This document shows positions 14,949 to 17,112 of a DNA stretch of 21,535 nt, piece by piece. A program made the position numbers and the translations under genes. Each line of letters starts with the position of its first letter. Position 1 is the first letter of the stretch. The stretch lies in assembly GCA_944323495.1 (NCBI GenBank), contig CALUSZ010000067.1, positions 1-21,535 on the forward strand, given 5' to 3'. Below the pieces are notes generated by a model, which saw only the letters and a list, made by a program, of their open reading frames with translations, had not been told where the DNA came from and ran no database searches. The stretch is from Candidatus Gastranaerophilales bacterium (GTDB lineage: Bacteria; Cyanobacteriota; Vampirovibrionia; Gastranaerophilales; Gastranaerophilaceae).

Positions 14949-16433
14949 TTAGATATAGCCTATTGGTTTTCTGTTGCTGGAGTTTTTGTCTTTTAGGAAA
15001 TCTGCGATTGCTTTATCAAAATCTTCCTGCGTTATTTTGAATTCTTTATTGTCCTGCGGAGTGTAAGTTTTATTGTCCATTTTTTCAAAGATTCCTGCTC
15101 TTACGAAACCATTTGTATGTGCTTCATTAATAATATGTCTTATATCGGCTCCAGTAGCCTTATATTGATGAAGCTTTTTCAGCATATTTTCTTTGTCAAT
15201 ATTGCTGTCAAGAGCTTTTTTAGCGGAATGAATATCAAAAATTTCTCTGAGAGCCTCTAAATCCGGAGCCGGAATTTCATAGTGTTTTCCAAATCTACCG
15301 GAGCGTGTAATTGCATTATCAAGTGCTTTATAATTATTTGTAGCTCCGATAACAAACACATTATGTCCTTCATTATCAATATCAGTCATGAGTGTCAAAA
15401 TCTGGTTTACAACCTTATTTCCATATTCATCCTTGCTGTCGCGGCTTCTTGCAACAGCATCAAATTCATCTAGAAATATAATTGTAGGCTGGTTTGCTTT
15501 TGCTTCCTCAAATAGCTGTCTCCAGTTAGCTTCCGATTCTCCAACCCATTTTGACTCCAAATCTAGTCCGTTAAGTCCTATAAAGTTTGCGTCAGCTTCA
15601 TTTGCAAGCGCTCTTGCAATATGAGTCTTACCGGTTCCGGGCGGGCCGTAGAGGATAAATCCTCTGTTTAATTCAACATTTTCATATGCATCAGGGTAGC
15701 GAAGAGGATAAATTATATCCTTTTTTAGAGCATCTTTAAGCTTGCTCATTCCGCCAACCTGTGCGAAAGTGACAGGGGTTGCGGTTTTATGTTTCTTTTG
15801 TATAAGAGTTGATAACGTCTTTTTATTGATTTTTTCAATCTGTGGTTCAACTTCTTTTTGAAAATCAAATGCTTTGCAGAAATTTTTACGAAACATACTT
15901 AAATCTGTTTTTGACTTATCTTTAATTTTTAGCAGACTGCCGTTAATATCGAGAACATCTCCGTTTATTACATAAAAGCTTTCTTTGGGGTTCATGCTAT
16001 ATGTTTTGTTGTCGCTTATTAAATTTATGTCAGAGTCGTTAAGGTTAATAACTTCTGTGTCACCAAGCATATTTTTAATAAAACCTATATTTCCGTTTAG
16101 ATTGTCATCCGCAATAAAAAAACCTCGTTTTATAGCGTTTTTGACAATATTTGTTGTATTGTACATTTTTTTTGCGCTTTCGTTAAGGTTTTTCCCTACA
16201 AGGATTAAATCTCCAAGTTTAAAATTTTGAAAAATAGATGCTAATCTATCTTCCAGTGGAATTTGTTTGGCAATTTCATTGACTGTCATCGGGACACCTT
16301 TAAAATTTACAGGGTAGTAATTTACAGCCTGTGGCAGTTTTTCTACATTAATTGAATTGTCAGGTGCTTGTCTTAATTTTTGTTTAGGTATGTTGTACCT
16401 TTGGAAGTTTGCTGTAATCGGGCTGATTCTCAT
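14949..16433 (-). CDS. Cytosolic AAA ATPase with a lineage-type N-terminal domain
   Basis: A 494-residue protein with one classic AAA module (about 222-480): Walker A GPPGTGKT (263-270), pore loop SKWVGESE (294-301), Walker B IIFLDE (318-323), sensor 1 in ATNN (364-367) and arginine fingers R377/R380. The AAA core resembles katanin/Cdc48/FtsH, but there is no membrane segment and no HEXXH protease domain. The N-terminal 220 residues match nothing I know; they start with an unstructured stretch ending in PVNFKG (41-46). It is probably a hexameric protein-remodelling motor with unknown substrate. GAGGAGG precedes the ATG, and the long leader looks regulated (16434-16691). Confidence 0.85.
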   Translation of the reverse strand: MRISPITANFQRYNIPKQKLRQAPDNSINVEKLPQAVNYYPVNFKGVPMTVNEIAKQIPLEDRLASIFQNFKLGDLILVGKNLNESAKKMYNTTNIVKNAIKRGFFIADDNLNGNIGFIKNMLGDTEVINLNDSDINLISDNKTYSMNPKESFYVINGDVLDINGSLLKIKDKSKTDLSMFRKNFCKAFDFQKEVEPQIEKINKKTLSTLIQKKHKTATPVTFAQVGGMSKLKDALKKDIIYPLRYPDAYENVELNRGFILYGPPGTGKTHIARALANEADANFIGLNGLDLESKWVGESEANWRQLFEEAKANQPTIIFLDEFDAVARSRDSKDEYGNKVVNQILTLMTDIDNEGHNVFVIGATNNYKALDNAITRSGRFGKHYEIPAPDLEALREIFDIHSAKKALDSNIDKENMLKKLHQYKATGADIRHIINEAHTNGFVRAGIFEKMDNKTYTPQDNKEFKITQEDFDKAIADFLKDKNSSNRKPIGYI

Positions 16434-16467
16434 TTGTGTGTCCTCCTCATAATAAGTATAAAAAACC

Positions 16468-16502
16468 GGCTTGTAAATTTCTTTCGTACGAATTTACAAG
16501 CC
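16468..16502 (-). terminator. Terminator/attenuator hairpin in the AAA ATPase leader
   Basis: A perfect 12-bp stem (16491-16502 with 16468-16479, GGCTTGTAAATT and its complement) with an 11-nt loop is followed on the minus strand by GG and six T residues. It stands between the promoter (16663-16691) and the ribosome site, so it would stop transcription before the gene unless opened. It might also end readthrough from the ykgJ-family gene. Confidence 0.75.
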
Positions 16503-16546
16503 TTAAAAGATAGTGTGTTATTTTATGTTTCTAATCTTGTAAATTC
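16490..16546 (-). promoter_or_regulatory. Antiterminator helix competing with the AAA leader terminator
   Basis: Bases 16536-16546 are the exact reverse complement of 16490-16500, the 5' arm of the terminator. In the RNA the upstream segment (GAATTTACAAG) can pair over 11 bp with CTTGTAAATTC and so prevent the terminator. The two structures exclude each other, the usual layout of an attenuator. Confidence 0.55.
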
Positions 16547-16561
16547 ATATAAAAACAACAT
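16523..16561 (-). CDS. Possible 12-residue leader peptide in the AAA leader
   Basis: A short frame, MLFLYEFTRLET then TAA, runs over the antiterminator strand. GGTGAT, which matches the 3' end of 16S rRNA, stands 6-7 nt before the ATG and is buried in hairpin 16562-16605. Translation would mask the antiterminator strand. No one amino acid dominates. Existence is inferred from position only. Confidence 0.35.
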   Translation of the reverse strand: MLFLYEFTRLET

Positions 16562-16605
16562 AGCTTAATCACCGAAATCATAATAGATTTTCGGGTCATA
16601 AAGCT
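16562..16605 (-). promoter_or_regulatory. Imperfect hairpin masking the leader-peptide ribosome site
   Basis: A 44-nt inverted repeat (AGCTT outer stem, CCGAAA/TTTCGG inner stem, TATTAT loop) contains mismatches and two single-base bulges. Its 3' arm in the RNA includes the GGTGAT ribosome site of the leader peptide. T-rich sequence follows. Confidence 0.5.
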
Positions 16606-16662
16606 GTTAATATGTGAATTTAGATTAGTCAATGTTTATCCCTTATTAATTGTAGTTACTAC

Positions 16663-16691
16663 ACTATATATGATGTTTTAAAATCTGTCAA
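16663..16691 (-). promoter_or_regulatory. Promoter of the AAA ATPase gene
   Basis: TTGACA (16686-16691), 17 bp, TATAGT (16663-16668) on the minus strand. This predicts a start near 16656 and an untranslated leader of about 220 nt. It begins 20 nt past the ykgJ-family stop. Confidence 0.75.
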
Positions 16692-16710: not shown

Positions 16711-17112
16711 TTAATCAGATGATTTTTGCAGATATGATTTAAAGCTTTTATCTTCAATTTTATAACCGCATCCTTTGTGAAGTTTGCCTGGATAGGAAAT
16801 CTTTTTTGCAGGGTAATTTCTGCACATTTTAAGACGTTTATTATATACAGAACACAAACCTTCTTCTGTTACATATTTGCAGGCAAAAATCAGGTTTCCT
16901 TCCTCATCTTTCCCTCTTATGTAAAACCTCCTGTATGCCGGAAAGAGGAATTGCATTATTTTAAAATCTGTTGTTGTATAAGTATCGAAGCTGTACATAT
17001 ATTTACAGCACTTCCCGCACTTGAGGCATTTACCGGTAATCTTGTATTCGACCTTTTCGGGAACAAAATATGATAAAATTTCATTTTTTAGATTTGTCAA
17101 AAAACTTAACAT
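16711..17112 (-). CDS. YkgJ-family cysteine-cluster protein
   Basis: A 133-residue protein with the family's conserved cysteines: C29-x2-C32-x2-CC (35-36), C78, C87 in the GLCSVYNKRLKMCRNYP block, C97, and C115. The set should bind zinc or an iron-sulfur cluster; the family (also called Fe/Zn-chelating CxxCxxCC) has no firmly established function. There is no signal peptide. It is divergent from the PBP gene with a 76-bp gap, and followed by the AAA gene with its own promoter. The ribosome site is weak (GGAG too far from the ATG). Confidence 0.82.
   Translation of the reverse strand: MLSFLTNLKNEILSYFVPEKVEYKITGKCLKCGKCCKYMYSFDTYTTTDFKIMQFLFPAYRRFYIRGKDEEGNLIFACKYVTEEGLCSVYNKRLKMCRNYPAKKISYPGKLHKGCGYKIEDKSFKSYLQKSSD

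Follow-up and report, generated by a model that had tools for sequence, protein, structure and literature searches.

In Bacillus subtilis, the vmlR leader contains an upstream open reading frame (uORF) within an anti-antiterminator, an antiterminator, and an intrinsic terminator, and ribosome stalling favors read-through; its further features are a drug-induced, three-codon uORF (Met-Ile-Asn), a pause hairpin, a hairpin sequestering the Shine-Dalgarno (SD) sequence, and an ABC-F factor gene (PMC9226507). In Listeria hflXr (rli80), a small ORF across the anti-antiterminator is combined with an antiterminator and a terminator in a single-gene leader, the 14-residue peptide bears an RLR motif, and induction is by lincomycin and erythromycin (PMC6310831). 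According to the passages of PMC13236596 on mycobacterial leaders, a ribosome at the stop codon of the ilvB1 uORF, whose regulatory codons are LVVI, masks mRNA and permits termination, and a stall within the uORF leads to expression of both ilvB1 and whiB7, the latter a transcription factor gene and not a biosynthetic one. The E. coli toiL-topAI uORF, as outlined in PMC12121999, responds to at least five ribosome-drug classes through stalling at different places and acts on translation and Rho-dependent termination.

We describe here a leader that is quite probably a ribosome-dependent transcription attenuator upstream of an AAA ATPase gene. It is located in a 21,535-nt stretch of DNA from a Candidatus Gastranaerophilales bacterium, which is referred to below as the window. 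Compared by anatomy, the leader follows the logic of vmlR, with a uORF, an antiterminator, an intrinsic terminator, and a candidate anti-antiterminator; unlike in vmlR, the frame has 22 to 36 codons, its stop codon lies on the antiterminator strand (strand 2), and the gene encodes an AAA protein (PMC9226507). The arrangement of ORF and helices would be shared with hflXr, but the peptide is longer and lacks a conserved RLR (PMC6310831). Masking at the stop codon would be a likeness to ilvB1 and stall-dependent expression a likeness to ilvB1 and whiB7, whereas the gene in our case is unfoldase-like and belongs to another phylum (PMC13236596). The toiL account offers a parallel for one uORF reporting many translation stresses, as we propose here, but our terminator is intrinsic (PMC12121999). 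The mechanism would be an ordinary one; the lineage and the target gene are new, and a search of the open-licence PMC literature for attenuation, leader peptides, or riboswitches in these bacteria returned no relevant paper.

All elements lie on the minus strand, in the order promoter, AAGGG, TTG frame, spacer, terminator, GAGGAGG, and AAA gene (14949–16433, ATG at 16433). The sigma-A–type promoter TTGACA-17-TATAGT (16663–16691) matches the consensus at 11 of 12 positions, in agreement with the original prediction made for this sequence, and is located 19 nt beyond the stop codon of a gene for a CxxCxxCC protein (16711–17112; assigned by a match to PF03692). An SD-like AAGGG (16640–16644) lies 7 nt before TTG 16632, the start of a 33-codon frame (16531–16632, MTNLNSHINSFMTRKSIMISVIKLCCFYMNLQD) that ends with TAG 16531 and is kept in relatives. 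The terminator, too, was found where it had been predicted (16502–16468): a 5′ arm, strand 3 (16490–16502), and a 3′ arm, strand 4 (16468–16481), are followed by GG and six T residues (16460–16467). This tract and the SD sequence of the AAA gene, GAGGAGG (16442–16448), were read from the sequence. The region 16660–16440 folds at −47.4 kcal/mol compared to −30.4 ± 3.7 kcal/mol in shuffles (z = −4.6), a value better than that of 200 of 200 shuffles. No Rfam 15 family matched the leader at its gathering score, the window matches being three tRNAs only, which bears out the earlier statement that the leader fits no known class. The hairpin was not reported by an automated terminator scan, which takes loops of 3 to 8 nt only.

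A palindrome, TGTA-N5-TACA, is located at the expected transcription start (16651–16663) and is present in 20 of 23 leaders; it is missing from leaders L026 to L028 and lies 9 bp farther from the −10 box in L010 to L013. Two such palindromes occur in the window, with 0.27 expected. It is possible that the start-site palindrome is an operator for some repressor.

Of 65 genus genomes, 22 carry the same leader anatomy ahead of the AAA ortholog, making 23 leaders with that of the window. The attenuator anatomy is real and conserved before the orthologous AAA gene. By eye, the promoter layout is alike in all 23 leaders, with TACTAT as the −10 box in L026 to L028. Each of 97 genomes yielded a match when searched with the AAA protein, many of these matches being confined to an AAA domain in some other protein; among the matches listed, full-length ones with at least 48% identity were all within the window’s genus. 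Upstream DNA was read for 29 of the 30 best AAA matches (all except L017) and then for 20 more, and no homologous leader was seen by eye in these 20 regions. Nor was such a leader seen by eye in eight orthologs, L018 to L025. These eight, L017, and the distant L030 and L036 were excluded from the counts.

A covariance model built from 14 leaders was searched against the 65 genus genomes and matched 19 of them at E ≤ 0.01, 18 of these at E ≤ 7.2e-4. In all 18 strong matches, the AAA gene follows the leader, and two leaders, in genomes G103 and G104, were new. The remaining match, in G018 (E = 0.0095, 90 nt), is at a locus with neither such a promoter nor an AAA gene and is probably due to chance. 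Four leaders known by eye were missed by the model. That of G038 was recovered at E = 7e-4 once less DNA was searched, while those of G012, G049, and G028 have arms of differing sequence; the search used stricter filters and 40 scored candidates per genome, so weak or divergent leaders may escape it. A repeat or mobile element was considered and rejected, each of the 18 genomes with a strong match having one such locus; in G037, an additional match comes from the opposite strand of that hairpin.

A tree built from 28 AAA proteins unites 15 rows that have a leader (95/94) and places L016 with the leaderless L018 to L025 (84/85). L026 to L028, whose leader is divergent, fall outside, beside the long branch of L030, a placement flagged as unsure by the program. 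The tree fits an old leader lost once in one clade but does not force this reading. In two wider searches of other families, AAA homologs with E ≤ 1e-60 turned up in 2 of 10 genomes and in 1 of 4, too few for comparison. Two AAA genes of the set are interrupted by stops or frame breaks, L029 (G037, contig C10) and L017 (G025, contig C63; two in-frame stops), and G037 retains the leader despite its broken gene.

Pairing was tested in representative sets from which the near-copies L011, L012, L027, and L029 were left out, along with L001 in the 18-leader pairing tests. Strand 2 (16536–16546, GAATTTACAAG) lies in the last codons of the frame, and its predicted 11-nt complementarity to the terminator's 5′ arm is present. 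The pairing tests identify strands 2 and 3 as alternative partners, with z ≤ −3.0 for 2:3 pairing in 17 of 18 representative leaders. The antiterminator and the terminator would exclude each other, as had been proposed, and the paired strands are conserved in close relatives, which the original prediction had named as its test. The exception is L016 (G038), where the frame is kept but 2:3 pairing does not exceed chance, being equaled by 51 of 300 shuffles. In the model alignment, 92.8% of 2:3 cells are paired compared to 21 to 53% when the strands are slid; the helix hardly varies within the genus set, and 180 of 500 shuffles match its values. Stronger evidence than this alignment pairing is provided by L026 and L028, whose terminator arms differ from those of the other leaders. 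Their strands 2 pair with their own strands 3 at −13.4 and −13.2 kcal/mol, compared to −6.0 and −6.9 kcal/mol with strand 3 of the window. Being close kin, the two count as one change, and the cross-pairing is not fully specific: L028 strand 2 also reaches −13.4 kcal/mol with L014 strand 3.

The original prediction lacked a third helix, a candidate anti-antiterminator (1:2) in which strand 1 (16612–16628), at the start of the frame, would pair with 16531–16550 at its end, as suggested by folding, covariation, and shuffle tests. For the terminator, where strand 4 was delimited by alignment folding and covariation, 90.2% of 3:4 cells are paired; for 1:2, the proportion is 65 to 73%. In these two helices together, 14 of 30 pairs are altered on both sides, and in an alignment that had been fitted to the structure, this number, the pairing, and the covariation score were reached by 0 of 500 shuffles. 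The observed number of further pair types was reached by 166 of 500. By energy, 1:2 stands out from codon shuffles (matched by fewer than 50 of 500) in only 8 of 18 representatives. A hairpin within the frame, P2 (16567–16597), is variable in sequence among relatives; compared to codon shuffles, it has a z of −4.1 in the window and a mean z of −1.9 over 19 leaders, with positive values in L007 and L026. Given plain alignments, RNAalifold returned the terminator or part of it only, a shortfall that we think is owed to strands 1 and 2 shifting between groups. Among the five closest leaders, pairing is no better than in shuffles (99 of 500).

A reading frame is found at the same place in all 23 leaders, with a TTG start in 20 and ATG in 3. 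The stretch before it resembles an SD sequence, with energies of −3.3 to −10.7 kcal/mol against a generic 16S ribosomal RNA tail. The original prediction had assigned the leader peptide to a 12-codon ATG frame (16561–16523), which does not hold up: a counterpart of this ATG exists at the same place in 5 of 23 leaders, with frames of 12, 38, 20, 3, and 9 codons. The hairpin at about 16605–16562, supposed to bury a ribosome site, falls inside the TTG frame, and its GGTGAT would be coding sequence. In all 23 leaders, the stop codon is located −4 to +16 nt relative to the start of strand 2, which was set by its core motif; a terminating ribosome would therefore cover strand 2. When frames were shuffled with dinucleotides preserved, a stop fell within −6 to +20 in 7 to 34% of shuffles per leader, rates that were not multiplied since the leaders are related. 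In L004, L010 to L012, L015, L016, and L073, the frame departs from the common one and acquires a new stop just before strand 2.

The frame has a coding-like composition that is kept among the leaders. Before strand 2, Asp and Glu account for 5 of 520 codons (1.0%) compared to 20 and 38 of 501 in the other frames (19 of 23 leaders), and stop-free shuffles contain 5.9 ± 1.0%, the lowest of 300 having 3.1%. Lys, Arg, and His make up 97 of 520 codons (18.7%) compared to 53 and 54 of 501, with no more than 17.3% in 300 stop-free shuffles. In 11 more distant leaders, acidic codons number 2 of 304 compared to 12 and 18 of 293 in the other frames. We read this frame-specific composition as a sign that the frame is translated and that the charge of its product is under selection. 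The peptide itself varies fast, with no residue-by-residue conservation: between the window and L001, 24 of 33 residues are identical, compared to 91% identity between the AAA proteins. With the last five codons omitted, the pN/pS ratio is 0.66 to 0.90 in four larger pairs whose frames are equally long, 2.56 for the window and L001, and 0.80 in one badly aligned pair of unequal length; the near-identical L010 to L012, with only two to four changes, give 0.24, 0.73, and one undefined value. The leader peptides contain neither a stretch of one amino acid nor a consistent run of codons; the original prediction had likewise noted no single-amino-acid bias.

To model masking by a ribosome, the nascent leader was folded to just beyond strand 3 with a footprint of −13 to +15 nt from the first P-site base, placed at every codon. 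In the window, an A site at codons 2 to 16 or 22 to 25 gives a predicted probability of 2:3 of ~0.9 to 1.0; at codons 18 to 21, 1:2 wins in the model, and from codon 27 onward, the predicted probability of 2:3 is 0. An early stall would raise 2:3 to at least 0.87 somewhere in the frame in 22 of 23 leaders, the modeled maximum for L016 being 0.47. With the ribosome at the last two codon positions, the predicted probability of 2:3 is below 0.01 in 23 of 23 leaders, which is consistent with the original proposal that a ribosome on the leader frame masks the 11-nt strand and favors termination. In nascent leaders modeled without a ribosome, 2:3 dominates (probability at least 0.76) in 16 of 23. 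The untranslated state would therefore not be a conserved OFF state, and 1:2 would be confined to some leaders, including that of the window, rather than being a common default. For full leaders without a ribosome, 3:4 is predicted to win (probability at least 0.71) in 20 of 23, with 0.21 to 0.38 in L010 to L012. The switch would therefore have to be kinetic, 2:3 forming before strand 4 is made.

From the observed anatomy, its conservation, the kept frame, and the position of the stop codon, we infer the following course of translation, termination, and stall dependence, as well as the signal. RNA polymerase would start at about 16656, judging from the −10 box, and the leader would be translated from TTG 16632. 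A ribosome that reaches the stop codon would cover strand 2, so that 3:4 forms and transcription ends before the AAA gene. A ribosome delayed early or midway (in the window, with the A site at codons ~2 to 16 or 22 to 25) would leave strand 2 free for strand 3; 2:3 would then form first, the terminator would be blocked, and the AAA gene would be transcribed. When no ribosome is present, 1:2 may hold strand 2 away in the window and some relatives. With a leader running from promoter to terminator, an exclusive antiterminator, a kept frame, and a stop codon positioned for masking, the element would, on its anatomy, belong to the attenuator class. It is not of the amino-acid-biosynthesis or the macrolide sub-kind, given that there is no residue run, no matching gene, and a +X+ motif in only 6 of 23 leaders.

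An attenuator specific for amino acids, sensing charged Trp/Cys or branched-chain tRNA four to eight codons before strand 2, is quite unlikely. Trp or Cys does occupy position −4 in 9 of 19 leaders, Val, Ile, or Leu is found in 14 of them at −8 and in 15 at −7, and in our model, a stall at these codons would free strand 2 in most leaders. However, Trp or Cys is missing at −4 in the other 10, single-residue runs are absent, and the pN/pS values given above also speak against such sensing. The codons in question lie, by eye, partly in the 3′ part of P2, so that RNA pairing can account for them, and the regulated gene encodes an AAA ATPase instead of a protein of amino acid synthesis or uptake. 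Drug-specific arrest in the style of macrolide leaders, where a nascent basic peptide stalls only with bound drug, would explain the excess of basic residues, which exceeds that in 300 of 300 stop-free shuffles, and the +X+ motifs; the topology, moreover, is that of hflXr with its RLR leader (PMC6310831). Against this, 17 of 23 leaders, including that of the window, have no +X+, the residues of the peptide are not kept, and no resistance family is found among the Pfam/NCBIfam matches of the AAA gene. We consider such arrest unlikely.

The original prediction left the choice between attenuation and a riboswitch. Attenuation is the part that is supported; a metabolite riboswitch with 1:2 as the aptamer stem is very improbable. 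The overlap of 1:2 with the antiterminator strand is what riboswitches show, and 1:2 covaries. However, there is no Rfam family, the alignments reveal by eye no common core beyond the arms and the frame and no common unpaired core within 1:2, the helix is filled by a frame of coding-like composition, and it is indistinct from shuffles in 10 of 18 leaders. It is also very improbable that the hairpin is a plain intergenic terminator against read-through from the CxxCxxCC gene, with the AAA gene driven from elsewhere. That gene is on the same strand, and a second promoter-like site, TTTACA-17-TATTAT (16477–16449), overlaps the terminator end. Yet a conserved promoter separates the CxxCxxCC gene from the leader, inspection by eye shows that L006 and other relatives lack the downstream site, and a plain terminator gives no reason for the conserved frame and strand 2.

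For the ribosome-dependent attenuator that we favor, the input is likely slow elongation in general, caused by starvation, ribosome-binding drugs, or other translation stress, because single-amino-acid runs are lacking and the peptide is free to change. More speculatively, and with considerable doubt, the leader may be a general translation-stress sensor driving a bacterial p97-like unfoldase, with the basic, freely varying peptide as a ribosome timer and not as a gauge of amino acids or drugs. Any slowdown of elongation would then induce a factor that would pull stalled or misfolded proteins. Acidic stretches can destabilize elongating ribosomes, and an acid-free peptide could be selected against ribosome fall-off or for elongation speed. 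If true, ribosome slowdown would be coupled directly to protein unfolding in an uncultured lineage of gut bacteria. The leader suggests a regulatory input for a p97-like AAA protein, which is predicted to be made when translation slows. Across the 23 natural leaders, the peptide sequence changes, but frame length, stop position, charge, and RNA pairing stay the same in kind, so that the set separates the requirements of a uORF sensor from its dispensable features.

The AAA product contains a possibly FHA-like N-domain (about residues 46 to 203) and a p97/Cdc48-like AAA domain (about 217 to 477) that is nearest to the AAA domains of p97/Cdc48. The best NCBIfam family, CDC48, scores 199.7 bits, far under its cut-off of 802.65; having one AAA domain instead of two, the protein is p97-like and not a full CDC48 member. 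Neither biosynthetic enzyme families nor resistance families were among its Pfam/NCBIfam matches.

The CxxCxxCC gene is also seen by eye upstream of six leaderless orthologs, L018 and L020 to L024. In L020 to L024 and, more loosely, in L018, L019, and L025, the upstream DNA has by eye an AT-rich motif, about CAAATTTATTTTTT, in many cases followed by GGTTTTA; this motif is located directly after the CxxCxxCC gene in L018 and L020 to L024. It is maybe a different promoter. In another group of AAA homologs (L039, L041, L043, L046, and L047), TATTAAGAAATGTAAA ... AAGTATCATATA is seen by eye before a TTG start.

Two related leaders occur in G070, which belongs to another family of the order, at L042:134–351 (contig C9) and in L082 from ~1500 (contig C21); by eye, they bear no likeness to the window leader. 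Their frames are rich in Cys and Met (MKNFIVKKQNNLQKHSMIMCCCCIMCMCQMCM... and MNNFIIKTQNSSQKHSTTTMMMCCCCMMRMR...), and each is then followed by a terminator-like hairpin. The L042 leader lies 294 nt before an AAA homolog, and that of L082 precedes the gene of a different protein, which has an FKG motif; a Met/Cys-rich frame lies close by. Both look like Cys- or metal-sensing attenuators.
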